The notes beneath the pieces are model-generated. The model saw only the letters and a program-made list of their open reading frames with translations, did no database searches and was not told the origin of the DNA. From assembly GCF_030378165.1 (NCBI RefSeq), contig NZ_CP119766.1:3224001-3288000 (forward strand): 64,000 bases of DNA, read 5' to 3'. The DNA is from Flavobacterium panacagri (GTDB taxonomy: Bacteria > Bacteroidota > Bacteroidia > Flavobacteriales > Flavobacteriaceae). Shown here piece by piece: positions 2,526 through 19,851 of the stretch. Every line of letters begins with the position of its first letter. Within the stretch, counting starts at the first letter, position 1. Position numbers and translations under genes: made by a program.

Positions 2526-3146
2526 TTATGCATAATCCAAATCAAATAACAGATGGTTCTCGTATTCAACCAGTGGATTGCATACCGTATCAATTTCCGA
2601 CCCGTAAAGATTGAATCCGTGTATATTCAAGGGCTCAACGCAGTTGATGCAGTTGTCGTTAAAAACATACTCTGATCTTAATTGCATCAACAGCCTGCCT
2701 AGTGCATTTTTTCCCTTTAGTTTGCCATTTCCCTCAGGAACGACAGCCCAATCTTTATCCTTATTGGATAATTCAACGATAGGCGCATTGCCGGTCCTTT
2801 CCAATAGTTTGTAAAACTTCTCAGAGTTTTGCGATAACTTAACTTTTAAAACCCAATACATGATGTCGTATTTCACCATTTCCCAGTCCTGTCTGGTATA
2901 AGAATTGAATTTGCGGCTGACCATTTTAGCGGTCATCGGACTATTCTGAACGATGATTTCTTCCTGGATGTGGGGAAACAGAGGATATCGGCATGCCTGG
3001 TATAATGCTTCGGCGGAGGGTATAATTATATCATTAACGCGTAAAGAATAACCGGGTGCCATATTGGACAGCCCCCCGAATTCTTCTTTAGTGCTTTTAA
3101 AAGATATAACATCAGAACTATTATATGTTCTTTCAGATATTTTCAT
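2526..3146 (-). CDS. NADAR domain protein (YbiA-like, DUF1768)
   Basis: This 206-aa protein carries the NADAR fold: FGGLSNM at residues 23-29, SAEALYQACR at 44-53, the W-x-x-V-K-x-x-I-M-x-x-V-L-x-x-K helix, an ELSNKDKDWAV segment and the closing KNALGRLLMQLR. NADAR proteins bind NAD/ADP-ribose-type ligands, and some are reported to remove ADP-ribose from guanine. It begins 20 nt after the stop of the PRTase-like gene, so the two are almost certainly co-transcribed, with the HD gene further upstream. The extra 45 C-terminal residues after the NADAR core are unassigned. The family call is strong. The role in a conflict system is inferred from context. Confidence 0.88.
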   Translation of the reverse strand: MKISERTYNSSDVISFKSTKEEFGGLSNMAPGYSLRVNDIIIPSAEALYQACRYPLFPHIQEEIIVQNSPMTAKMVSRKFNSYTRQDWEMVKYDIMYWVLKVKLSQNSEKFYKLLERTGNAPIVELSNKDKDWAVVPEGNGKLKGKNALGRLLMQLRSEYVFNDNCINCVEPLNIHGFNLYGSEIDTVCNPLVEYENHLLFDLDYA

Positions 3147-3166
3147 ACTGCAAATTAAGGAAAAAA

Positions 3167-4225
3167 TTAATTAATACCCCTATTTCTCAAGCAAAATAAT
3201 GGAATCCAGTCATGGCCGGGGACATCCCACCAAAATACAACGGGACATGTATTGGAAATATTTCTCCACGTGAAAAATAAAGTGCCGGTCCCTAGGGTGC
3301 GATGCGATTTTACGGTGTCTCCCAGAGGCCTTTTTCTTGGATCGGGATTTACTTTCTTTATTTTTTTGATCAGATCCAGGCCTTTTTCCAAAACTATGCT
3401 TTCAAAACGCACTCTGTTTTCCGGACTTGAAAAAAAAGTTTCTTCAAAAGGCAGGTTTGCCGGTCTAAAAGGGGCAATTTTTGAGTTTTCCGCTTCAAGT
3501 GATGCCAAATACTCCAATACCTCTTTTGACTGTTTTTCGATAGGATAGATACAATTGAGCTTTTGTTTTTCTGCAACCCATTTAGTTTTAAGCTGATTTT
3601 CAATTTTGTAGTCAAACCCGACAAGCAGAAAATTTTGAATTTTATCGTCAAACTGCTTCATTAGGCCCCATTCCATATTTTCATACCCAAGCTGGTGATA
3701 GCAGAACAGGCTTATGGCAATGGTCTTCTGCTTATTCAATACCTCATCCAGATTATTGTTTTCAGAAAACCAGTTATGCAGATCTTTATAAATTGTTCCG
3801 CCCGTTGCCAAAACATCGTCAAAGTAGATGTAATGTTTTTTGGGCTGATCTATTAATAATTCATAATTTACTCCGAACCGTTCATCAAGAATCTGCTTCA
3901 CTATTGCAATGATCTCCTTTTGGCTTTTTTCAGCCTTTTGAGTATCGATGAAATGTGTATTGTTGATAAATTCCTGCATGGTGGCATACTTGTAGAAAGT
4001 CTGGAATCTGACCAGACGTTTTTCAAGCAGTTCCGACGCTTTGCTTTTGGAGATGTATATTTCAGGCAGAAAATGAAGCAACTCGGAAAGGACAAATTCC
4101 GCACTGTCATCAAATTGGCCCGCCCAATCCATTATATGTTCTACCGACATCCTATAGTCGGTCTCAGGGGTATCGCAATGGTAGTCCTGTAAAATCTTAA
4201 ATATCCTTTCGGCGGTTTCCTGCAT
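3167..4225 (-). CDS. Phosphoribosyltransferase-like protein (PRTase-CE type)
   Basis: This 352-aa protein has a PRPP-binding loop, FDDVLATGGT, at residues 135-144: acidic DD, then TGGT as in type I phosphoribosyltransferases. An N-terminal helical region of about 110 residues precedes it. The C-terminus ends in a tryptophan-rich tail (TWRN, then FWW, then W-I-P-L-F) of a kind I associate with PRTase-like proteins predicted in prokaryotic conflict systems. The substrate is unknown; a nucleobase or nucleotide ligand is the natural guess. It sits between the HD phosphohydrolase (277 nt upstream) and the NADAR gene (20 nt downstream). Confidence 0.75.
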   Translation of the reverse strand: MQETAERIFKILQDYHCDTPETDYRMSVEHIMDWAGQFDDSAEFVLSELLHFLPEIYISKSKASELLEKRLVRFQTFYKYATMQEFINNTHFIDTQKAEKSQKEIIAIVKQILDERFGVNYELLIDQPKKHYIYFDDVLATGGTIYKDLHNWFSENNNLDEVLNKQKTIAISLFCYHQLGYENMEWGLMKQFDDKIQNFLLVGFDYKIENQLKTKWVAEKQKLNCIYPIEKQSKEVLEYLASLEAENSKIAPFRPANLPFEETFFSSPENRVRFESIVLEKGLDLIKKIKKVNPDPRKRPLGDTVKSHRTLGTGTLFFTWRNISNTCPVVFWWDVPGHDWIPLFCLRNRGIN

Positions 4226-4502
4226 TTATGTTAGTTTTCAATAAAATATAAATGTATAATATTGTTCTTTATGGTACAAGAAAGAAAATTCAATATGTTG
4301 AAATTACAAAAGAAATTTAGACTCGTGCCAGCTTTCTGCTCAGTAAAACATAAGCATTCCATTTGAAATTATCATTTGAACTGATCTAGCATTAAATCCG
4401 GGGAAATTGCATTAATTCAGAAGCTTAAAAATTATATAGGCAACTGCATTAATATCCCATAACTTAAAGGCCTTCCTGTTTTTTTTGCTTTCGGATTCGG
4501 AA

Positions 4503-6083
4503 TCAGGTATTTGCATACTTTTCCAGCTCAGAAAGTTCAGATGAAACACTGTCCAGAATAGTTTTCTTTTTCCTTTCGAAATCATTGGAACTTGTAAATG
4601 TCCTTCTTAAGTAGATCCTAACCATTACAACATTCATATTCATCAGCGAGAATTCTTTACTTACATTTTCCCATTGCGCATTAAACTGATAACTCCCTTT
4701 GCTTTTTTGCGCAATTATGATACATTTTATATCCGAATCCTTGAAGGTCTTATTTTCATAAATATCAGTAGTTGCAAATATATCCTCTGTAACAAAAGGT
4801 TTTAATTTTTCATTTATAGCTTCCTTTATTTTTTCTATTTTATCAAAGTCATCGAAGTTGTCTTTAGTCAATATAATTTTTGCCTGATAAACCCGCTTGA
4901 ATAATTTTCTCTCCAACAATTCTTCAAGAACCTCTTTTTCAGAGTCCCTAATAGTCACATCCGTTTTTGCAGTGTCATTCAAAAAAACTTCATCACTGTT
5001 TTTAATGTAAAAATCCATTAACTCCTGTATCGTTTTACTCTTATTCAAAAGCTTGGTACCTAATGTTTTACTTGATGCGCTCGCATAAGCGAGCATTGTA
5101 TTGGCCGATCTGTTTGTTTTATGGAAATACACCTGGTTATATAGGTGGGTTCTGGATTGGATAAATCTCAGCATGGAATCCAATCCGCTTTCCTTATACG
5201 CTAGATATACATTATCATGAGCATCTTTACTAGCCATAAATGAAGCGAAAATCCTATTGATATCGTAGATACCGTAGGTCACTCCGGAGAAATAGCTATC
5301 CCTTAAAAGGTAATCCATCCTATCGGCATCAATTGGAAATGATGTGATGATGCGGGAAAAGAAAGAGGTGTAATTATTCTCTTTTGAATCGATAAACTCA
5401 TCCAGATTTTCAAAATCAGGTTCAATCAATTTTACGATCCTTTCAGCAGATAGGCTTTCAATTACAATCTTGGCCGAGGGTGAAAATTTATGTTCATCGG
5501 TTATGTGCTTTGTCTTTAATTCGTCAATAAGAATAAAAATAAATGCGCATGAAATGATTTCATGCTCCACTTTATTTTTATTGGCCGCAATCAGCTTTTC
5601 AAAACCTAAATAATAATTTTTGAGCACAGTTGAGTCTTCCACAATCTTTAGAAAAGCATCCTTACTTATTGCGAATTTATCGAAAAGATGTGATAGCGGG
5701 CCATGCCCGATATCATGCAGAAGAGCAGCCAATCTTAATTCTTGATAAAAAAACTCCTCCCGATCCTCTAGATTATTAAGATTATAGAAGCTGCTCTGTC
5801 CTTTAATGGAATACTTTTCTTTTTTTTTCTGCCCGGTTGCAAAGTTTTCCTTGCAGGAATCAAATATTTTTCCTGCTAAATGCATTACTCCTATAGAGTG
5901 TTCAAATCGTGTATGATTTGCCGAGGGAAAGACATAATATAAAAAAGTGTTCTGCTTCACTTTTCGTAACCTGGTGAAGATGGGATGTTTTATAATCCAT
6001 TTTTCAATTTCTGAAAGTTTGATATCGCCGTGTAAAGGATCAAGAATACTTCCATAGTAATTATCTCTGTAATTGTAAATCAT
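4503..6083 (-). CDS. HD-superfamily phosphohydrolase (SAMHD1/dGTPase-like, COG1078 type)
   Basis: This 526-aa protein shows a full HD metal site: H57 and H62 in NHTRFEHSIGVMHL, H123-D124 with H127 in LLHDIGHGPLSH, and a later D in a DADRMDYLLRD helix. The N-terminal DPLHGDIKL and FTRLRKVKQ segments are typical of dNTP triphosphohydrolase relatives, including SAMHD1. A roughly 200-residue C-terminal extension is unassigned. The family suggests nucleotide or dNTP hydrolysis. It is the first gene of the minus-strand HD / PRTase-like / NADAR set. The 277-nt gap to the next gene leaves room for a second promoter. Confidence 0.85.
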   Translation of the reverse strand: MIYNYRDNYYGSILDPLHGDIKLSEIEKWIIKHPIFTRLRKVKQNTFLYYVFPSANHTRFEHSIGVMHLAGKIFDSCKENFATGQKKKEKYSIKGQSSFYNLNNLEDREEFFYQELRLAALLHDIGHGPLSHLFDKFAISKDAFLKIVEDSTVLKNYYLGFEKLIAANKNKVEHEIISCAFIFILIDELKTKHITDEHKFSPSAKIVIESLSAERIVKLIEPDFENLDEFIDSKENNYTSFFSRIITSFPIDADRMDYLLRDSYFSGVTYGIYDINRIFASFMASKDAHDNVYLAYKESGLDSMLRFIQSRTHLYNQVYFHKTNRSANTMLAYASASSKTLGTKLLNKSKTIQELMDFYIKNSDEVFLNDTAKTDVTIRDSEKEVLEELLERKLFKRVYQAKIILTKDNFDDFDKIEKIKEAINEKLKPFVTEDIFATTDIYENKTFKDSDIKCIIIAQKSKGSYQFNAQWENVSKEFSLMNMNVVMVRIYLRRTFTSSNDFERKKKTILDSVSSELSELEKYANT

Positions 6084-7182: not shown

Positions 7183-10125
7183 TTAGCGCTCATACTTTTT
7201 TAGTATGTCATCGATGTCACTTTCAAGCATTTTGTATAGCCAGCTTCTTATGACGCAATTTTCCTCGAGTTTTGAAGCGCTTATTCCCTCGAATATCTGC
7301 ACGTTATATCGATATGAATCTTGGACCTTAAGGATCAGTTCCATTGAGAAATGCTTTACACATATGATTCCTTGTTCGGCAAATGCCTTTTCTTCCTCTT
7401 GGAAACCTTTGAAATAAATACCGAAATCACCTGAATCAGAATGGCGGTAGCCAAAACCACCCCACTGCAGGATGTCATCATCCTTAAGGTAAACAATGTA
7501 CTCGTGCGGCATGGTATTGTAGAATTCAAAAGAATCTTTTAAAGTCGGAAAATTGTATTCCACAAATTCCTTGTAACAGGATTCCAGGTGCCTGAAAAAG
7601 CTTGCGGTATATTCCTTGGCCTGACTTTCACTGAACTGGACCGTCCGCATGCGGTTGGAATTCTGCATCCTACTATGATGGTACGTTTCTTTTGTTTCCT
7701 TTAGGGATACATCGGCAAGCGGCAGATAGTGTGCGTCAATCTGACGGTAGCCCTTCTTAAGCAGCAGATCCACTATCTTTGAAAGCCCCTCAAATGGCGG
7801 AACATGGCCCTTTGTTGTGAATTTAGGAATCGGAAGGTTTTCCGATATGGTTCGTTCAATAATCTCCGCCAGTTCCTCCCGTGCAATATTTTTATATCTG
7901 TAATGCTCTCTGATCTTAAAGAGATTTAACCTGTTTTTCAGATCCAAAAGGTCAATAGGGTAAATCTGCTCATATCGGGGCATGTAATAATCTTCTATTT
8001 TGTAGCTGTAGTTCAATTTTTCATGATAGTGATACACTATGGCCGCCAGCTGCTCGAAAAGAAGCGTATCTGAGCTGAAAGTAGGGATGGATTCTTTGCC
8101 GATTATTTCCCGAAGCTGGCTGAAAATAGACTGTGTTACAATTGTCTCATTGTCTTCCACCAATAGAGAGATATTGCTTGTTCTGTATGATTTGGCGCCC
8201 GTCTGTAAAAAAGGATTGTTTTTGTATGGAGCTTCAAAAGGATTACGGAGGTTAAGATGTACCACATTGTCAATGCTTTTTTCCGATAGTGGAAATAAGG
8301 CATAGCCATCGCCTTTGATGAGGTCTTCCGGCAGTATAATACCGATTTCTCCTGCTGTATGGGGAGTAAACTTTTCCTTGAAAGCGGAAAAATTTTCGTC
8401 CAGATAAGAATTATAGGCAGAAAGGTAGGACAGGCATTTGTCTTTCTTAAATGAAACCAGTGTACTTTTATGGGAGTGGGAAGCATTTTCAATGTAAAAG
8501 TCAATTGCGCTTTTGCCAATATGGTTTTGATAGAAATGGGTGAGGACATCATAAAAGTCGCCATTGCTTTTTTTATCCAGTTTATAAATTTGGAAGCAGA
8601 TGGCGTAATCGCGGATTTTCGAGTAGTAGAATGATACATTATAAGAATCCTCATTGTTGGATCTGATCAGGATATTTCGGGTGAACAGGTCTTCCGGTAT
8701 TTTTTGGTCCAGAGCATAGTTTAGCCTCTCAATGATATGGTTGACATCTATACCGTCATTATTATGAACTTCCGTATGCGAGTAGGTATAATCCAGCAGC
8801 AGGTTTGCAATTGCGCAAAGCGTTCTTGTTCCGGCCTCAAAGCCAATCTCTGTTTCTTGAAGGGTCTGTTTGAGGTATTTTGCAATAAGTTCCCTGTCGC
8901 TGATCTTTTCAGGAATCTGTTTTTCCGCATAGACTTCGCAGAATATCTTTAAAAAGAATCCGTTCCTTAATTCGGGAAAGAGTTTATCGGAAATGTCACC
9001 TTTGAAACCAAATTCCGTCTGATACAGGGGAAGAATGGCCGCTAATTCCTCATCAGTGAAATCAGTCAAATGATAGCCCGGGTTTTTCAAGCTGCTGTTA
9101 AATCTATGGAAGCTGTCCGCTTCCTGATAAAGCTGCGTAGGCTTATTTTTGATTTTAAGGACGGTGTCCCATATATTGGTTTTGCAGCTGATAATTATCT
9201 TTATTTTATCAACATGTTTTGCAATTAGAGCCATTTCACTTAATTCTTGGGCAATGCTGGAATTGGTGCTTTCATCAACGGCATCGATGAATATGAGGAC
9301 GGTTTTGCCTGCATAACGTCCCATTTCATCAAGTTTTTTCAGAGCAACATCTTTTTCAATCCTGCTTGAAAAAGCTAAATTGAGGTCCTGGGCAATGCAC
9401 TCTGTGGGAGAAGTGATGATGGCACAGTTATAGAAGAATACAAAGAAGTCCTCCAGTTTCTGCAGGGCGAGAGAGCACATAGCATTGGTTTTGCCTACTC
9501 CAGCATCGCCCACCAGACCAAATACGGAATCACCAGAAGCCACAAAGGTTTCAAATACATCCCCCAGATCTTTTCGCTGTACGTAAAGTTTTTTGATAAA
9601 TTTGGCATAGCGGCTGTCGGAATCGCCGATGATCATGCCCATGCGGTCATTAACCTGCAGTTCACAGAAGGCCCTCAGATTTTCAGGAGACATGGCAATG
9701 AAGTTTTTCAAAGCCTCATATCTGAGCTTTAAATCCTCATCTGAAGACAATGAGCATTCATTTCTCCAGAAAGCCGATTTTTCTGAAATGCAGCCCGATA
9801 GCTCTTCTTTGGTAATGGAATCATATATTTTAGTCAAGGCTCCGTTTGAGACTATGGTGAAAGGCGCTATTTCATCCAGCAGCCTTGCATAGGAAATTCC
9901 CTGATCCCGATCCGCATCCGTAAGCTGTTTGGACTCCGCTTTTACTTCAATGACAAAAAGATTTCTGCCATGCCTTTTAATGAGCATATCAGATCTGCCT
10001 GTTGCATGCTTGTTTCTTCCAAGACGAATGGTAAAGGAATCTTCAAAGGTTATTTCTGAAGGATCTATTCCTAAATCCTTTAAATAGGGCAGCAGGATTC
10101 TGCCTGTAATGTCAAATTCACTCAT
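7183..10125 (-). CDS. Nuclease-STAND ATPase (HSDR_N-like PD-(D/E)XK plus NACHT/AAA-type P-loop), Avs-like
   Basis: This 980-aa protein has three parts. Residues about 1-110 form an HSDR_N-like PD-(D/E)XK domain: D46 in GRSDMLIK, E60-x-K62 in FVIEVKAE, and a Q75-x3-YA motif. Residues about 165-480 form a P-loop NTPase with Walker A GDAGVGKT (206-213) and Walker B VLIFIDAVDE (276-285). The last 500 residues are a large helical/beta region with no motif I know, suitable as a sensor. The layout of effector, STAND switch and sensor matches anti-phage Avs-type proteins. It lies 74 nt after the small PD-(D/E)XK gene, so a three-gene operon is likely. Confidence 0.75.
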   Translation of the reverse strand: MSEFDITGRILLPYLKDLGIDPSEITFEDSFTIRLGRNKHATGRSDMLIKRHGRNLFVIEVKAESKQLTDADRDQGISYARLLDEIAPFTIVSNGALTKIYDSITKEELSGCISEKSAFWRNECSLSSDEDLKLRYEALKNFIAMSPENLRAFCELQVNDRMGMIIGDSDSRYAKFIKKLYVQRKDLGDVFETFVASGDSVFGLVGDAGVGKTNAMCSLALQKLEDFFVFFYNCAIITSPTECIAQDLNLAFSSRIEKDVALKKLDEMGRYAGKTVLIFIDAVDESTNSSIAQELSEMALIAKHVDKIKIIISCKTNIWDTVLKIKNKPTQLYQEADSFHRFNSSLKNPGYHLTDFTDEELAAILPLYQTEFGFKGDISDKLFPELRNGFFLKIFCEVYAEKQIPEKISDRELIAKYLKQTLQETEIGFEAGTRTLCAIANLLLDYTYSHTEVHNNDGIDVNHIIERLNYALDQKIPEDLFTRNILIRSNNEDSYNVSFYYSKIRDYAICFQIYKLDKKSNGDFYDVLTHFYQNHIGKSAIDFYIENASHSHKSTLVSFKKDKCLSYLSAYNSYLDENFSAFKEKFTPHTAGEIGIILPEDLIKGDGYALFPLSEKSIDNVVHLNLRNPFEAPYKNNPFLQTGAKSYRTSNISLLVEDNETIVTQSIFSQLREIIGKESIPTFSSDTLLFEQLAAIVYHYHEKLNYSYKIEDYYMPRYEQIYPIDLLDLKNRLNLFKIREHYRYKNIAREELAEIIERTISENLPIPKFTTKGHVPPFEGLSKIVDLLLKKGYRQIDAHYLPLADVSLKETKETYHHSRMQNSNRMRTVQFSESQAKEYTASFFRHLESCYKEFVEYNFPTLKDSFEFYNTMPHEYIVYLKDDDILQWGGFGYRHSDSGDFGIYFKGFQEEEKAFAEQGIICVKHFSMELILKVQDSYRYNVQIFEGISASKLEENCVIRSWLYKMLESDIDDILKKYER

Positions 10126-12024: not shown

Positions 12025-12717
12025 ATGGGAAGACCTTTTGATTTTATGGAAAAGTTATCCGCTGGATACACGTTTGTCGACCTCGGATACCGGGATTATA
12101 TTGCTGCCCGCTTTTTGCTGAATAACGATTTCATAGTTCAGGGATTGGCACTTGCCAGTACAGCAGTAGAAAAATATCTTAAAGCTGTAATCGTATTTAA
12201 CCTTCAGGAAAAAGAATGGTACAATTATCATTTTGACAGATTTGAGAAACTCAAAAATCTGCTGGGTAAAGTTAACCGTGATGTAACCGAAGAGTTCGAT
12301 TCCCTTTTCGTGGCAATACTTGAAAAAGCATTTAAGATCAGATATTATGATAAACTTGAAAAGCCGATTTATATAGGGTTTTATATCAATCAATTTATAG
12401 GGGAACTAGATTACACAATCAACTATTTGGAAACGTTCATTTTTAATACTCAAAGTGCCGGACAATCCATGACCGATTATAGTAAAGCAGTCAGAAATAA
12501 AGATTCAGGTCTCTATTATAATAATTTTGTGCTAAATAATAAGAATAAGAAAGATTTTATGGAAAAACCTGACAAAGGATTTTCCTTATACCTTAGCATA
12601 GGCCCAGTGATCCAAAAAGAAGAAATTACAAAAGGGGGAAGTACAAGAAATAGTTATGACGGACGAATAGCGGAATTCAGGGAGTTTGGATCGGATTTGA
12701 TAATGGACCAGCTGTGA
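12025..12717 (+). CDS. HEPN-domain protein
   Basis: This 230-aa protein has an N-terminal HEPN-like four-helix segment: FVDLGYRDYIAARFLL, then the diagnostic ALASTAVEKYLKAVI helix (about residues 45-60), then a FKIRYYDK helix. The classical R-x4-6-H RNase motif is not obvious, so it may be a non-catalytic or substrate-binding HEPN. The C-terminal 90 residues are polar and unassigned. It precedes a second, catalytic-looking HEPN gene on the same strand, with a weak short frame between them. Confidence 0.6.
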   Translation: MGRPFDFMEKLSAGYTFVDLGYRDYIAARFLLNNDFIVQGLALASTAVEKYLKAVIVFNLQEKEWYNYHFDRFEKLKNLLGKVNRDVTEEFDSLFVAILEKAFKIRYYDKLEKPIYIGFYINQFIGELDYTINYLETFIFNTQSAGQSMTDYSKAVRNKDSGLYYNNFVLNNKNKKDFMEKPDKGFSLYLSIGPVIQKEEITKGGSTRNSYDGRIAEFREFGSDLIMDQL

Positions 12718-12745
12718 CGGTAAAAGTGTCAGCTGAAAAAAAACA

Positions 12746-12967
12746 GTGCTAAGAGAGTGCAGATGGAATGAATTAAATCCGAAGGCAAATCATCAGGTAA
12801 AGTCTCTTTTGAAAAATATCGGCCCAATGACAAGCCAGTTTTATATTACGGACGATTTGTTCCCCCAGTTAGCCTCCACTGTGGCGAGAGATCAGAAAAA
12901 TTTGGCTGGTGCGGTAACAAACAATCCAGAGTACTATAACATTACAAGCCACTATAAAAAATGCTAA
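12746..12967 (+). CDS. Possible small protein between the HEPN genes (doubtful)
   Basis: A 73-codon frame from a GTG start ends exactly at the base before the ATG of the following HEPN gene. The abutting stop and start would suit translational coupling. The sequence is unlike any family I know, there is no ATG start, and it may be a remnant. Low confidence. Confidence 0.2.
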   Translation: MLRECRWNELNPKANHQVKSLLKNIGPMTSQFYITDDLFPQLASTVARDQKNLAGAVTNNPEYYNITSHYKKC

Positions 12968-13729
12968 ATGGAAATAACAGAATTTAACGACAAATTAGTT
13001 AAAGAATTTTTTGAAATTGTCAACCGCACAATGGAAGAGGTTCATGAACATCCAGATTACAGCCGGTCTGGAAACAATCATCATTTATTAAGCCCTGAAG
13101 GAAAATATGCCAATAAAGTTTTTGGCATTTATTTGAAAATTAAAGAAATTAAAGAAGATTTGAGAAAAATAGAAATTTTTCTCCGCCGTTTTCCATTAAA
13201 AAAATTTTATGAAGAAAATGAAATTTCTCATCTAGATTATATTAAATACCATACCGAAGTTTTCTATCACAAATCAAATACTCTCCTAGATTTGTTCAAA
13301 TTATTTACAAATGAAGTATATGAACTTGGCTATTCAGAAAAAAAATGCACTTGGAACAATTTAATGAAATCGGAAGCGGTTAAAGACTCATTATCAATAA
13401 AAGTAATAGAATATTATCATAAAAGTTTTGAACACATTATCGAAGCCAGAAATTTGAATACGCACCGCGGAATATTCAAAGATTCCAAAAAAGATGATAT
13501 AGAAGCTCCAATGATGATTTATAAAAATTCAGAAAAATTTAATTTGGAATTAAATGAAGTATTCAGAAAAATGATGCCCAAATTTTTATTGGAGTATAAA
13601 ATCAAAAAATACAAAAATGAAAGATTATTGTTCATTAAAAGCGGAAATAATGCAGCGGAACAATATATCAATTTTTTTATGAACGTAACTCTCCCAGAAT
13701 TTTTGAACAGGGCTAAAGCGAAGCAGTAG
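12968..13729 (+). CDS. HEPN RNase-like protein (Cthe_2314-type)
   Basis: This 253-aa all-helical protein carries the catalytic HEPN motif R-x4-H at residues 161-166, inside EARNLNTHRGIF. The preceding helices (SHLDYIKYHTEVFYHKSN and LDLFKLFTNEVYELG) match the Cthe_2314-type HEPN family as I recall it. HEPN proteins with an intact R-x4-6-H are usually metal-independent RNases acting in toxin-antitoxin or abortive-infection settings. No dedicated antitoxin (for example an MNT nucleotidyltransferase) is adjacent. The upstream HEPN-like protein could be a partner. Confidence 0.7.
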   Translation: MEITEFNDKLVKEFFEIVNRTMEEVHEHPDYSRSGNNHHLLSPEGKYANKVFGIYLKIKEIKEDLRKIEIFLRRFPLKKFYEENEISHLDYIKYHTEVFYHKSNTLLDLFKLFTNEVYELGYSEKKCTWNNLMKSEAVKDSLSIKVIEYYHKSFEHIIEARNLNTHRGIFKDSKKDDIEAPMMIYKNSEKFNLELNEVFRKMMPKFLLEYKIKKYKNERLLFIKSGNNAAEQYINFFMNVTLPEFLNRAKAKQ

Positions 13730-13978: not shown

Positions 13979-16537
13979 TTAATCTAAATCATAGTCTGTT
14001 TTGCTCTCGTAAAAAGCATCTATGAAATTTTTTAACGTAGTTTTTTGATCCTTATCCAGATTCAGCATGTCTAAGGCTCCTTTATGAAGCGCTTTGCCTA
14101 TAATATAATTCAATTCATTTTTCATGACATAATCAAAGTCATTCCTTGTAATGTTTGGTACAATGTTACGCGAATTGATATTTACAACAATGCTTTCAAT
14201 TTCAAATATGGAAGCAGAGTACGGAAAATTAAATAAGAAATCCTGTATTAGAACATTGCGGACAAACAATTCTTTTCTTTTCTTATCTTTGTAACGGTAC
14301 ATATATGTTTCACCTTTCTCGAATGGAAGGTACAATTCATTTTTTCTTCCTTCAAAAATATTGATTTCTTTTTCAAAAATAGATGTTGAGCAATTTTCAG
14401 TATGTCCCAATTCTACCAAATCGGATAAGGTTAATTTGTCAAAGAGGCAGGAAGTATCATCGTCCATGATACAGGAGTAGATTTTGTATTGAAAATCCTT
14501 ATGGACAATTACGGCAATCCATCTTAATTCGCGGTCCAATTTTTCAATTACATCATTAACATCCGAATCGGTAAACTTTATGCCGTTTAAAAAACGTTCT
14601 TCCATTTCGGCATCAACAAGCGGAATAGACATATATTTTATATTATTATCAATAATGAAGTCGTCCATTTCCAGTACAGTATTTTCATCAACTTTTTGTA
14701 ATCCGTCATCGTCATTGTAACAGTACAATTCTCCTTCGAAATCTAAATCATCAATTTTTAAAGCATAATTTTTTTTCTCTTTTATGATTATTTGGCCCTC
14801 AATGTTCTTAAGGTAATTACTTAAATTAATTTCCACAAAATCCGAAGAAAATGGAGTTCGGATCGAATTAATTATTTCAGTAGCGACTTGAGTCTGTTTG
14901 TTGATTAATTCTATTGAAACACCATCGGTTAAAAAGTATCTCTTCATGAAATCATGAACATTGTCAAACTTATTGGAGAAGACTTTAATGAAAGCATTAT
15001 AGTTTAAAATCACTTCAGTTCCATCAAAATTGAAATCATCAATCTGGGTAAGTGACGTATATTCATTATTTTTTTCCAGTTCAATTGTTATCTTATGCCT
15101 GGATTTAAATTTTCTTGTGATCACTTTAACATTATCTGAAAGCATAAAGCACGACAAAAATCCAATCCCGTAATTTCCGATCGGATTATATTTAAAATTT
15201 CTCAATTTAAAATCCCAGGAATTGTAGTATGAAACGCCTATGTTCAAAAAATGGTCTTTAATAATTTCCATTGACATTCCCATGCCATTGTCTTTAATAA
15301 TGACCATGTCTTTGATTGGATCCAGTATTATTTTAATTTTTGGATAGAATCTCTCATTTCCGAACTCATAACTTTCTTCCTCTATTTCTTGCCTAACTTT
15401 GCAGGAGTCAAATGAATTTTGAATTAATTCTCGTAAACCTAAGTTTTTGTTGCCATAAATTTTTTCTCCCATCAGCAAATTGCTAATAGCCTTATAATCT
15501 AGCGTCATTTTATAGTCAGAAAAACTGAAGCCGTTGGGTTTTATATTAATTTCTGGAGATGGATTGTAAAGTAAGTTATACTGGCTGGACATTTTGTTGA
15601 CTAAGTCCATGGAATGAGTTAGTTCGTCCTTTACCCAGTCAATGTACGATAATATTTTCCGGTGTATGTTAGCATTTTCTGATGTTCCGTGAAATACGAT
15701 TTTCTTCTGATTGGTAACTTTATCAAATTCAATTTTTTCTGTATTGGAAATAATAAAATGCTGCTTCCATTCCGATTCACTTTGCCCGACAGGATTGATT
15801 GATTTAAACAAAGTGTATGGAGTTCTGCTTGAGTCGATGTCAAGGATATCAGCTAATCTTAAAATACAGGCTATATACTGTGAATTGAAATGGTACCGGC
15901 CTTTAATCTCTCTCTGCGTTAAAGACGATTTTAGCCAGTCGAAATTTTGTGTATGACTTTCACATATTGAAGCTAGTTCGCCAACAAAATTTTGGCTTGA
16001 AAGGTCTGGTATGCGGAAATGATCTTTAAGAACTTCATGTATGAATTTCGCAGAAAGAGATGAATGGAATTTTCGGACATATTCTTTGAGCGCCGCTTCT
16101 TCGTCATTCCCCATTACTTTCTTCATGGATGAATATTTAATGTCGGAAAATACCAATTGGTCACTTTTAATTAAATCAATATCTTCCTGACTGACTGCCA
16201 TCCCTACATCATGTAGTAATGCAGAATATACTAAAAGGACAATTTCTAACTCATCCAAAAGAGAAATATCATGAATCAGTTTAGCCATATATTCCATAAT
16301 TCTGAAAGAATGCTGTGTGTTGTGCAGCGTGTAGTTATCAAAAATCGTAGGTATACGATCATCTAACAAATTACAAACCTTATTGTATACAGCCTTAATT
16401 TCCGGTAAAAATTCACTATTCTGAAGATGTTTAATTAATATTAAATCTTCTATAGCTATCCTTGAGTCTAATTTTAATTTATTGTTTTGTACCTGCATAT
16501 TTTTTAATGTTCTATAAGCGTATGGGCTAAATGGCAA
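13979..16537 (-). CDS. HD domain fused to Hsp90-like (GHKL) ATPase
   Basis: This 852-aa protein has two domains. Residues about 60-310 hold an HD-type domain: H72 and H76 in TLHNTQHSF, H109-D110 in LLHDVGMA, and LRLADILDID with D230. Residues about 350-560 hold a GHKL/Hsp90-type ATPase: E370-L-I-Q-N374, D416-N-G-M-G420, and GNYGIGF from 454. The last 290 residues are unassigned. Such HD plus HATPase proteins are predicted conflict-system components (HD-CE type) with unknown substrate. It is the last gene of a minus-strand set, 113 nt after the small acidic gene. Confidence 0.75.
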   Translation of the reverse strand: MPFSPYAYRTLKNMQVQNNKLKLDSRIAIEDLILIKHLQNSEFLPEIKAVYNKVCNLLDDRIPTIFDNYTLHNTQHSFRIMEYMAKLIHDISLLDELEIVLLVYSALLHDVGMAVSQEDIDLIKSDQLVFSDIKYSSMKKVMGNDEEAALKEYVRKFHSSLSAKFIHEVLKDHFRIPDLSSQNFVGELASICESHTQNFDWLKSSLTQREIKGRYHFNSQYIACILRLADILDIDSSRTPYTLFKSINPVGQSESEWKQHFIISNTEKIEFDKVTNQKKIVFHGTSENANIHRKILSYIDWVKDELTHSMDLVNKMSSQYNLLYNPSPEINIKPNGFSFSDYKMTLDYKAISNLLMGEKIYGNKNLGLRELIQNSFDSCKVRQEIEEESYEFGNERFYPKIKIILDPIKDMVIIKDNGMGMSMEIIKDHFLNIGVSYYNSWDFKLRNFKYNPIGNYGIGFLSCFMLSDNVKVITRKFKSRHKITIELEKNNEYTSLTQIDDFNFDGTEVILNYNAFIKVFSNKFDNVHDFMKRYFLTDGVSIELINKQTQVATEIINSIRTPFSSDFVEINLSNYLKNIEGQIIIKEKKNYALKIDDLDFEGELYCYNDDDGLQKVDENTVLEMDDFIIDNNIKYMSIPLVDAEMEERFLNGIKFTDSDVNDVIEKLDRELRWIAVIVHKDFQYKIYSCIMDDDTSCLFDKLTLSDLVELGHTENCSTSIFEKEINIFEGRKNELYLPFEKGETYMYRYKDKKRKELFVRNVLIQDFLFNFPYSASIFEIESIVVNINSRNIVPNITRNDFDYVMKNELNYIIGKALHKGALDMLNLDKDQKTTLKNFIDAFYESKTDYDLD

Positions 16538-16650
16538 GAGTAATTTATTATGGATATTAATTTAAAATTATTGGCAGTTCGCTTTATATCCTTATTGATG
16601 AGTGTAGATTCCATTTGGGAAGTATGTTCACAATTATGGAAACCTCAGGA

Positions 16651-16971
16651 TTAAAAATCTTCATCTTCAATTATAGTTTCATCCTCTTTTAATATATTTG
16701 AATTAAAAGAATCAAATATATCGTCAAGAGTTTCCTTTATCAATTTTATTTTTGAGTCCTGTGAAAGTAAGGAGAGAGAATCGACATATCGTATTTCCAG
16801 CTTGGTATCCAATTCAAGTAAAGCTGTTAGTTTCAAAATCAAAGGATTTAAGTCGATATCTCCATTGGTAGTTAAATCGACTGATGGGAAGGAAAGGGTC
16901 CCGTCCTGTGGATCGAAATTAATTGTGATTTTATCCTGTTCAATTATATTTGATACAATTATGTTGTTCAT
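16651..16971 (-). CDS. Small acidic hypothetical protein
   Basis: I do not recognise this 106-aa protein. It is acidic and rich in isoleucine, leucine and aspartate, with a strongly acidic C-terminal tail (EDETIIEDEDF). It has no cysteine or membrane segment. It starts 7 nt after the stop of the PHP-ATPase gene and is followed by the HD-ATPase gene, so all three are probably one transcript. The size and charge fit an accessory, inhibitor or DNA-mimic-like partner, but that is only a guess. Confidence 0.6.
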   Translation of the reverse strand: MNNIIVSNIIEQDKITINFDPQDGTLSFPSVDLTTNGDIDLNPLILKLTALLELDTKLEIRYVDSLSLLSQDSKIKLIKETLDDIFDSFNSNILKEDETIIEDEDF

Positions 16972-16978
16972 AGCTTGA

Positions 16979-19354
16979 TTATTGTATTATTTTTTTGATA
17001 TTATACTTTCTGGCTCTTTGTTCAAAAATATACTGGCCACCGTCCAGTACATTGCAGATTTCTTTTTGATGGTCTTTTTCCTCTAATACGAATTGCTCGT
17101 ATTCGATTATGTTTTCATTATTAGTGCACATTATGACGTTTTCCGCATCACCATATACCACAATAGATGGATTATGGGTGACTAGGAAGATCTGCTTTTT
17201 AAATTTTAAAATTCTGATCAGATTGATAAGTTTGTCAGTAATGAATTTGTTTCCCAGATTATCTTCAGGCTGATCAATAAAAATTATTTTTGAAATGCCG
17301 CTTCGCAGAATTGTTTCCAGATATTTCTCGGAATTGTAGCCAGGCGAATTGTTTTTAGAGGTGCTTTCCTCGGAATATTTGAGATATTCGGTTGGCTTAT
17401 CGAATGATTCTAGTATGCTTTTAATGTTAGTATAGGTTTTTTTTGAAAGGTTTTCGGCAGAATTTTCGTTTAAGTTTTTTATTTTCACTGCGCCTAATGC
17501 TAGTTTAATAAGGGCTTCATATAAATTCAGGCTGTTGTTTACACCGCTTATGCCATCAAAGACTTTCTCTTTTAGAATTTCAGTGCTTTCAACTTCCAGC
17601 ACTACGGTAACTTCATCGTTAATGGCAATTTCCTGAACTCCTCCATAACTGTAATTTTCGAAATGGATACAATGGTCACGAATCTGCAGAGCAATGTCAA
17701 ATGCCTCGGAAATATTATTTTTAAGGATTGCAAGCCTTTGATTGGATGCTTCTTTTTCCCTTCCTTTTAAATCCAAATTTGCATTTTTGCTTACAATGAC
17801 ATTCTTAACTTCTTCAATAAAATTTTCTTTTTTGCTGTATTCGTTTTTTAAATTCTCAAATATACCTTTCTTATTTTCTACTAATTCTTTAAAAGCCTTA
17901 ATTATTTTTTGTTCTTCGACTGTAAACGTCCAGTTCTCATTAACCTCGAATTTTTCAGCATTTTCAAGAAGTACGTTGATGATATCATCCGAGCTTTTGA
18001 ACGAGTCCGTCATGCTTTCAATCTTTTGAATACTTTTGAAAATGTAGCTCGAATCAAGAATAGAAGTGATATCTTTATCGTGAAAAGTGAAATTTGAGTT
18101 TAAAACATCATATAATTTACTATACAGTGAAGTAAGTTCATCAATAATATTAATTAAATCTTGTTTTTTAGTTTTGAAAAACTCTAAAGCTGTCTTATAG
18201 TTTTCAATTTCTCCCGATTCATTAATCAAATCTTTTAATGATTTATTTTCAAAATAATTTACAATGTCGCCCTGATTGATGTAAATGATATCGTGAGTAT
18301 TATAACTGATCATATTCTTGTAGTCATTATCCAAAAAGCTTTTGACATTCGCATTGCTGATATTTATACCGTATTTTTCGATCTGGCTCTTTCTGTTATT
18401 TATTTTCTTCCCCAAGATATTAAAAAGCAGGCTTTTGCCGCTTGAACGGCCCCCAATAATTGCATTTAGGTTTGGGCTGAAGGTTATTGTTGTATCTTTA
18501 ATAATTGGACTGTCGGTAAATTCAATGCTGTGCAGGAAATTGTCAAATCTCTGTAAGACTTCTACTTCTGAAAATTTCTTTATCCTGGAACTTGGATCAA
18601 TGAATGCAAATCTGATGGATTCAAATGTAGGTTTTCCTTTTATACAGTAAAACTGGTGGTCATCCCCATCCTTATTAGTGCATGGATATTTATTACAGTT
18701 ATGATTGTCTGAAAAATTGATATACGGGATATCATCTTTTTCCTTAAAATCCAGTGTTTTGATTCTATCGAAACCTTCGTTATATCTTTGTCTGGCACTT
18801 TCTTTCACTTTTTCAAACGCACTCGGCATAAGAAGCACCATCTGCTGGCATAGTTTCAGGTCATAACTCATGTAGGGATCCAATATGCTCTTTGTATTCC
18901 CTGCATGCGGTATGAAGAAGAAATTTAAATCATTGAATAAGTCATATAGGTCATCTATAACAATCTTTCTGTCGGTCAATACGCAATTTTTCTTGGCATA
19001 CAAATCTTCTATTTTTTGCGAGATTGTCTGAACGCTCTCAAAATTGTCATTTTCGAAAATGATGACACTGTGGTAGGTAATCGATTTGCCTGATTCTGGC
19101 ACTTCAATATCAAACTCGCATCCAATTAAGAGCTTTGGATCTCCCACGGCGTAATTGTCGTAATAAACTTTGTAAGCATCAATATTTATAATATTGTGGT
19201 CAGTTAATGAAAATAACTTTACATCGTTCTCAATTAATTTTTGCTTGAGGACAAGTATATCAAAATTTCCTTGATAGTCATTAGTTTTAGTTTTTTTACT
19301 AAAATCAGTATGGATATGTAAATCGACCTTAAACCAATCAGAATATTTTTTCAT
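16979..19354 (-). CDS. PHP phosphoesterase fused to SMC/ABC-like ATPase (TrlF-type)
   Basis: This 791-aa protein has an N-terminal PHP domain (about 1-250): D-L-H13-I-H15-T, TDH at 51-53, E80 in GCEFDIE, H150 in IPHAG, and D216-x-H218. An SMC-like ATPase follows: Walker A GGRSSGKS at 301-308, a coiled-coil-rich middle (about 360-560), Walker B near 690-700 in IIFIDQPEDNLGN, and VTHNP beyond. PHP domains hydrolyse phosphoesters with a metal cluster. The fusion resembles NCBI TrlF-family AAA-like ATPases found in accessory loci. It is the first gene of the operon with the acidic protein and the HD-HATPase. Confidence 0.8.
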   Translation of the reverse strand: MKKYSDWFKVDLHIHTDFSKKTKTNDYQGNFDILVLKQKLIENDVKLFSLTDHNIINIDAYKVYYDNYAVGDPKLLIGCEFDIEVPESGKSITYHSVIIFENDNFESVQTISQKIEDLYAKKNCVLTDRKIVIDDLYDLFNDLNFFFIPHAGNTKSILDPYMSYDLKLCQQMVLLMPSAFEKVKESARQRYNEGFDRIKTLDFKEKDDIPYINFSDNHNCNKYPCTNKDGDDHQFYCIKGKPTFESIRFAFIDPSSRIKKFSEVEVLQRFDNFLHSIEFTDSPIIKDTTITFSPNLNAIIGGRSSGKSLLFNILGKKINNRKSQIEKYGINISNANVKSFLDNDYKNMISYNTHDIIYINQGDIVNYFENKSLKDLINESGEIENYKTALEFFKTKKQDLINIIDELTSLYSKLYDVLNSNFTFHDKDITSILDSSYIFKSIQKIESMTDSFKSSDDIINVLLENAEKFEVNENWTFTVEEQKIIKAFKELVENKKGIFENLKNEYSKKENFIEEVKNVIVSKNANLDLKGREKEASNQRLAILKNNISEAFDIALQIRDHCIHFENYSYGGVQEIAINDEVTVVLEVESTEILKEKVFDGISGVNNSLNLYEALIKLALGAVKIKNLNENSAENLSKKTYTNIKSILESFDKPTEYLKYSEESTSKNNSPGYNSEKYLETILRSGISKIIFIDQPEDNLGNKFITDKLINLIRILKFKKQIFLVTHNPSIVVYGDAENVIMCTNNENIIEYEQFVLEEKDHQKEICNVLDGGQYIFEQRARKYNIKKIIQ

Positions 19355-19851
19355 TATTTTAATAGTACGTTAGTAAATTCTTTATGCAAATATTGAATTT
19401 CAGCATTTAAAATTTTTATGGAAAACCATAATATGAACAAGTAATTTCAAACTTATAGATTACGGTTAACATAATCATAAGTATTAATACTTGTTTTTTG
19501 ATATCAAGGATAAGATTTGGTATCGTCCAGATTTTTTTAATTTGATATCTCACTAAAATTTATAATCAAAATATTAGGATTATTTTGCTTTAACCTCTTT
19601 AGCATTTTCCATTATGAAGCTTTCTTGATATTGACTGCTTTCTCTTTTAATAATTACAGATGGCTATAAAATGGATAGCTTATTAAATCCCCCGTGATTT
19701 GGAATTTTTAAGCTCAGCATTGAACATGCTTGAGGTTAATAGTGAGGAAGGTTTTTGATTTGTTCTACGTGGGTGTCGATTCCTATGTAGAAGCAGCTGT
19801 GAACTTTTTCTGAAAGATAAAAGTATAAAATCTATTAAATTTTTTCATTCG

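Follow-up and report, generated by a model that had tools for sequence, protein, structure and literature searches.

A putative two-gene module of a PHP-ATPase and a small acidic partner, with a neighbouring HD-CE/Hsp90-like gene, in Flavobacterium panacagri

Genes at the locus

We analyzed a window of 64,000 nucleotides (nt) of the Flavobacterium panacagri genome, corresponding to positions 3,224,001-3,288,000 of a 5.98-Mb single-contig genome. The window encodes, in a row on the minus strand, a TrlF-like PHP-SMC/ABC ATPase (PHP-ATPase), a small acidic protein that we call ACID, and an HD-CE/Hsp90-like ATPase (Table 1). The three genes exist where a preliminary description of this DNA had put them, but we do not retain its proposal that they form one "two-ATPase" defence system. 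We rate as about an even prospect that the PHP-ATPase and ACID genes are a two-gene functional module in a defence island, with the HD-CE gene separate from it and with a PHP nuclease regulated by ACID, whose tail resembles that of single-stranded DNA-binding protein (SSB). This corrects the unit from three genes to two, and the HD-CE gene is considered separately below.

The longest open reading frame (ORF) of the HD-CE gene, 13979-16537, begins with TTG and encodes the 852 amino acids (aa) of the preliminary description. In the database, the copy of this protein has 839 aa, starting from the ATG at 16498, and 119 other relatives among the matches listed have 826-864 aa. Thus, the ATG is the more likely start. 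The gap of 7 nt between the PHP-ATPase and ACID genes stands as described, whereas the second gap, 113 nt between the ORFs as open, is more likely 152 nt. Promoter- and terminator-like sites are no more numerous at the locus than in shuffled sequence. The word operon, previously applied to all three genes, fits those for the PHP-ATPase and ACID as judged from their arrangement; we do not extend it to the third.

Table 1. Features of the locus, with coordinates in the window.
Feature	Position	Strand	Description
PHP-SMC/ABC ATPase gene, TrlF-like	16979..19354	-	791 aa; N-terminal PHP phosphoesterase, ABC ATPase halves flanking a middle region
PHP domain	18605..19354	-	About residues 1-250; H13, H15, D52, H53, E80, H95, H150, D216, H218
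ABC/SMC-like ATPase	16982..18535	-	About residues 274-791; motif names assigned by eye
ATPase motifs			Walker A GGRSSGKS at 301; signature-like SPGYNSEK at 670; Walker B FIDQPEDN at 692; H-loop THNP at 726
ACID, acidic partner	16651..16971	-	106 aa; predicted beta3-alpha-beta-alpha core and low-confidence acidic tail
SSB-C-terminus-like acidic ACID tail (..IEDEDF)	16654..16683	-	Predicted local distance difference test (pLDDT) below 50; likeness partial, function putative
Region upstream of PHP, conserved with F. phragmitis (L003)	19355..19497	-	blastn match 19497 to 16651; presumed promoter/leader of PHP-ACID
HD-CE/Hsp90-like (GHKL) ATPase gene	13979..16498	-	839 aa counted from ATG; probably an independent neighbour
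HD-CE domain	15617..16342	-	Phosphodiesterase (PDE)-like H-N-x-x-H ... H-D ... D residue set; PF24391
GHKL/Hsp90-like ATPase domain	15065..15436	-	E370/N374, DNGMGM, GNYGIGF (852-aa numbering); PF13589

The fusion of a PHP domain to an SMC-like ATPase is as previously described, and its active residues are kept. None of the 25 aligned rows departs from the PHP residues listed in Table 1, or from Walker A K307, D694/E697 and H727. We take the metal-ligand roles of the PHP residues from general knowledge of PHP enzymes. The rows of this alignment, and the 21 of the HD-CE alignment, were sampled from 120 listed relatives in each case, out of 571 and 503 matches respectively.

The nearest family by score is TrlF. 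The NCBIfam model for TrlF (NF045780) gives 259.3 bits against a cut-off of 350, and it is matched by all 25 sampled members of the PHP-ACID clade, where the best E-value, 2.7e-77, is at the level of the 259 bits of the window protein. Three complete plasmid TrlFs, used as positive controls, score about 520-596 bits on this model (550, 520 and 595). Because the window protein falls below the cut-off while complete TrlFs score well above it, the PHP-ATPase is, by the NCBI cut-off, a sister group of TrlF and not a member. The two share the order of an N-terminal PHP domain and a C-terminal ABC-type ATPase and a match over most of their length, but identity to four plasmid TrlFs is only 22-26%, and the TrlFs are longer (880-904 aa versus 791). 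TrlF-type PHP-SMC ATPases are common on plasmids, where 785 records match.

Other models are also not reached, including NCBIfam Spaf_1101 (NF045781; 86 bits, cut-off 475) and Ppl (NF042955; 70.5 bits, cut-off 1000). Pfam PHP falls just below its cut-off (23.4 versus 26.4 bits), and the TrlF-like ATPase is matched besides. In PADLOC the protein is weakly similar to Ppl (56.6 bits), PDC-M49A and others. Against PDB profiles, the ATPase part weakly matches AriA (E 2.2e-4) and Rad50 (E 0.001). By these scores it is a distant relative of the anti-phage protein Ppl, and of its general kind, which agrees with the PHP-SMC ATPase of the preliminary description.

The family is rare. A profile search identified the PHP-ATPase in 4 of 398 Flavobacterium genomes, the window's own included, and at E 1e-60 it is found in one of 395 genomes of the class, namely its own. 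Comparison of the window with F. phragmitis shows purifying selection on both the PHP-ATPase and ACID, with ratios of nonsynonymous to synonymous substitution rates (dN/dS) of 0.043 and 0.102; these values are rough because dS is above 1.2.

Two listed relatives look mosaic by eye when P0055, P0057 and P0061 are compared with P0085 and P0122 in the PHP alignment. In P0055 and P0057 the PHP domain is like that of the Elizabethkingia/Myroides group (PHAGGHKNIID) and the ATPase part like that of the Flavobacterium group, which suggests domain exchange by recombination.

The acidic partner and its tail

Relatives of the PHP-ATPase with flanking sequence were obtained from one scan of genome contigs, which yielded F. 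phragmitis (L003, 90% identity; the contig begins 782 bases upstream of PHP), F. amniphilum (L004, 82%), F. yafengii (L005, 76%) and Capnocytophaga bilenii (L006), and from a profile search of Flavobacterium genomes, which yielded L068 (46% identity over 789 aligned positions). The four genomes of the profile search are the window's own, G209 (= L004), G265 (= L005) and G733 (L068). ACID lies directly after PHP in four of the four other intact loci, at distances of 7, 9, 9 and 1 nt in L003, L004, L005 and L068. In Capnocytophaga (L006:9974-10689) the PHP gene is decayed, with large internal losses, and ACID is still recognizable beside it. Among 204 Flavobacterium genomes, a sample that may or may not include G265 and G733, the ACID profile matches two, G000 and G209, each a PHP carrier. 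Among 79 fetched loci it matches at PHP-ACID loci only, with none at the four TrlF loci or at HD-CE loci.

The plasmid TrlFs differ in this respect. In all four plasmid loci (L056-L059) there is no ACID by profile and no small partner annotated in a gene table that is itself incomplete; a mechanical ORF of 76 aa follows TrlF in L056. What distinguishes PHP-ACID among PHP-SMC ATPases, on sequence comparison, is a partner, small and constant, whose tail is like the SSB tip: it accompanies PHP in the window and in the four intact relatives, unlike in plasmid TrlF, the criterion being drawn from four plasmid loci. The preliminary description was silent on both the constancy of the acidic gene and its tail.

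ACID is acidic, as described (isoelectric point 4.05, net charge -15). At E 1 or better it has no Pfam match, nor does it match any NCBIfam or PADLOC family. It is without the SSB domain PF00436, which matches two other genes of the host genome. The C-terminal tip of SSB is an acidic run ending in [LI]PF, and ACID C-termini are acidic with a final F in 12 of 13 aligned rows: two, the most diverged, end in DDLPF, ten more are acidic with F, and one is without F. Of the two SSB-family proteins of the host, one ends in NDLPF and the other (L069) in NEILLL. None of the 247 mechanical ORFs (150 aa or longer) taken from the window and 17 Flavobacterium loci has an acidic ending with F.

We propose that the ABC/SMC head may bind nucleic-acid structures that arise in phage replication and, in an ATP- or other nucleoside triphosphate (NTP)-dependent state, license the metal-dependent PHP phosphoesterase to degrade them. 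The PHP activity would most likely be that of a single-strand exonuclease, as in the related Ppl. ACID would be the constant regulator, with its folded part binding the ATPase and its acidic, Phe-ended tail acting like the SSB C-terminal tip. One option is that the tail fills an SSB-tail pocket on the nuclease and keeps it off until SSB-coated phage DNA competes. Another is that the tail docks the nuclease onto SSB-partner proteins. In its full form, in which an SSB-tip mimic plugs or tethers a single-stranded DNA nuclease that SSB-coated phage intermediates release or target, so that SSB-tail competition switches between self and non-self, the proposal is speculative and we regard it as rather unlikely.

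Ppl is the best candidate for shared chemistry by analogy, having in common an N-terminal PHP domain and a C-terminal SMC/ABC-type ATPase. A statement given without reference in a review describes Ppl as a 3'-5' exonuclease on single-stranded DNA that requires 3'-OH ends and is inhibited by NTPs in both its PHP and its NTPase domain (PMC12904381). The same review, in the part concerned, calls Ppl a single-gene system, whereas the PHP-ATPase of the window has a constant acidic partner. Precedents for phage SSB as a cue in nuclease defence come from AbpAB, Hna and Retron-Eco8, for which it is reported as the trigger. Their proteins are unrelated to those described here and, unlike in these systems, the SSB link of ACID is drawn from the tail motif alone.

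Several observations weigh against the proposed module and its mechanism. The tails of the close ACID group are only partly SSB-like (EDEDF and EDDDF, without LP), the ACID of L005 ends in KLH, without F, and the NEILLL ending shows that the second SSB-family protein of the host itself departs from the motif. The ORF control is not size-matched to ACID, and the 12 Phe endings represent fewer than 12 independent events because the ACID rows are related. The pairing was checked in five other loci, four of them from Flavobacterium. The chemistry of Ppl may not carry over, given the distance of the PHP-ATPase from the Ppl model, and defence and nuclease activity are predictions for every member.

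The main alternative is that ACID is an ordinary antitoxin, which would block toxicity of the PHP-ATPase by stoichiometric binding, with a tail unrelated to SSB, in a toxin-antitoxin module. A small acidic partner in a tight operon, found only with PHP, is consistent with this, as is the faster evolution of ACID relative to the large protein. However, mere charge would not require a final Phe, yet 12 of 13 rows retain it although their tails vary in length, and the two most distant ACIDs carry exact DDLPF tips. The small gene is second in the window and in the four intact relatives, a point against an antitoxin that is weak either way. We consider the antitoxin a possible explanation, though not a probable one.

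Under the preferred reading of a PHP nuclease regulated by ACID, a clade that, so far as seen, always carries a small partner may offer a handle on how such enzymes are restrained in uninfected cells. If the ACID tail does work like an SSB tip, this class would join the systems that read SSB as a cue of infection.

The HD-CE gene

The third protein combines an HD-CE domain (Pfam PF24391, 174.5 bits versus a gathering cut-off of 27) with a GHKL ATPase domain (HATPase_c_3, PF13589, 37.2 bits versus 25). PDB Hsp90 N-domains match the GHKL region (best E 1.9e-12), and the HtpG model NF003555 gives 82.8 bits over residues 355-575, short of its cut-off of 371. All 21 aligned rows keep the HD and GHKL motifs unchanged, so this part of the earlier account holds, and only the length of 852 aa gives way to a likely 839. 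In 839-aa numbering, H59, H63, H96, D97, H145, H182 and D217 are shared by all 17 HD-CE domains compared, the most distant at 19% identity. We compare this set with the HNxxH ... HD ... D metal site that we take to be that of class I cyclic-nucleotide PDEs, which have an all-helical fold. The model of the HD-CE domain has a pLDDT of 83.7, and among solved structures its fold is closest to cyclic-nucleotide PDEs and Ppx/GppA. PADLOC-DB 2.0.0 contains no match for the window HD-CE protein; its REase_II model is weakly matched by 17 of the 21 relatives.

Close relatives of the HD-CE protein occur in two further of 299 genomes of the genus (62% identity; one cut by a contig end) and in one further of 395 genomes of the class (56%). 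In another Flavobacterium (L037:6357-11264) the HD-CE gene lies directly upstream of a gene for BovA, the CHAT protein of Borvo (PADLOC 435.6 bits), which shares the locus and is no homologue of HD-CE. In L055, a gene for a PrrC-like AAA_13 ATPase precedes HD-CE and is itself preceded by type I restriction genes, as read by eye.

Conserved linkage of the three genes is largely absent. HD-CE adjoins PHP-ACID in none of the five other loci, and searches of those genomes with the HD-CE query returned only HtpG-level matches in G209 and G265 (best E 1.5e-9 and 1.6e-10) and only GHKL-region matches in the genomes of L003, L006 and G733 (2.5e-10 to 9.6e-7). Conversely, neither PHP nor ACID was found in any of the 17 fetched HD-CE regions (L037-L053), whose HD-CE members are remote in 15 cases (24-30% identity), or in the ORF list of the L055 (G651) region.

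Comparison with F. phragmitis places a boundary between ACID and HD-CE. DNA similarity (blastn) runs from 19497 to 16651, the position at which the stop codon of the ACID gene is complete, and goes no further. Upstream of PHP, 20548-20205 matches F. phragmitis and 20204-19498 does not. The gene for CorA, farther upstream in the window, lies in F. phragmitis on another contig, 764 nt from its end; the 209-aa gene between the PHP flank and CorA has no DNA match in that genome. Given the matching flank and the position of CorA, PHP-ACID probably occupies the same site in both genomes, the two contigs being unjoined in the record. In place of HD-CE, F. phragmitis has downstream of ACID two ORFs (387 and 371 aa), neither of which matches a Pfam family.

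One observation speaks for the three-gene arrangement and against a separate HD-CE gene. The longest contig given for a PHP relative (P0055, 70% identity) and that given for the closest HD-CE relative among the matches listed (P0136, 78%) have the same length, 33,287 bp. By a rough density estimate, the 119 x 119 listed pairs would give 0.01 chance equalities of contig size above 20 kb, and 0.41 at any size. Thus P0055 and P0136 are probably on one metagenomic contig, whether or not adjacent, and the three-gene system survives as a minority reading, in which one sublineage of PHP-ACID would have acquired HD-CE as an accessory effector or regulator acting downstream of a PHP-ATPase sensor. Shared strand, close spacing and the rarity of both families (close HD-CE relatives in three of 299 genomes, own included) favour it as well. 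It is improbable nonetheless, given the five PHP loci without HD-CE, the different genes downstream in F. phragmitis, the other company kept by HD-CE relatives, the 152-nt gap, and the tendency of defence islands to gather unrelated rare genes. We conclude from these comparisons that HD-CE, a neighbour of PHP-ACID, is probably a defence gene in its own right, of the PDE-like HD/GHKL kind.

As such, the HD-CE protein may act as a one-gene effector, in which closure of an Hsp90-type ATP clamp would sense an infection client and switch a PDE-like HD phosphodiesterase, whose action would destroy a nucleotide or nucleic acid. The even length of the relatives, the varied defence surroundings in L037 and L055, the retention of all HD and GHKL residues and the folds nearest to the modelled HD domain are consistent with this. 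We give this reading equal chances of being right or wrong, and it is compatible with a two-gene PHP-ACID module.

Related systems and neighbouring genes

No modelled system of PADLOC-DB 2.0.0 is recognized at the locus, where ACID and HD-CE have no match and the PHP-ATPase only weak ones. AriA of PARIS, Rad50 and RecN have ABC ATPase motifs in common with the PHP-ATPase, although the similarity is weak and local, and no AriB was seen at the window locus. Menshen was considered and rejected, as it contains DUF262 and an OLD nuclease according to PMC10952713. A literature search, with most subscription journals outside its coverage, found, among the papers listed, no description of the PHP-ACID pair or of the three genes together. 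The term HD-CE is absent from the main text of eLife.70394 and eLife.52696.

That PHP-ACID is a DNA-repair or housekeeping module lying by chance in a defence island is very improbable, since the weak RecN/Rad50-like similarity that would suit it is set against the rarity of the PHP-ATPase within genus and class, its decay in Capnocytophaga, and the genes adjoining PHP-ACID in L004 (PDC-S71, a PADLOC candidate defence gene) and L005 (an HNH gene).

A 221-aa gene is found just upstream of PHP in L005 (9317-9982) and just downstream of ACID in L068 (11361-12026), where the copy matches no Pfam family. The two are alike by eye, and the gene is possibly a third travelling companion. In a genome of the same genus as L006, a TrlF gene in two overlapping open frames (L078:8-2589) is followed by a long ORF that looks, by eye, like a helicase gene.

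The conflict or defence setting of the window noted previously is borne out by its NADAR, PRTase-CE, HD, Avs2-like NACHT and HEPN genes. Convergent to HD-CE on the plus strand (12025-13729) are two tandem HEPN-type genes, for which HEPN is below and HEPN_Cthe2314 above the cut-off. A minus-strand gene at 7183-10125 encodes a 980-aa STAND/NACHT-like protein with an HSDR_N-type N-terminus, weakly similar to Avs2 (PADLOC 50 bits; NCBIfam Avs2 38.6 bits versus a cut-off of 1000). Farther along the same strand (2526-6083) are, in a row, genes for a NADAR protein (2526-3146), a PRTase-CE protein (3167-4225) and an HD protein (4503-6083) with weak PADLOC matches to dGTPase and Cas3, which as a row may be a conflict set. 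In Pfam, the entries for PRTase-CE (PF24390) and HD-CE (PF24391) stand next to each other.

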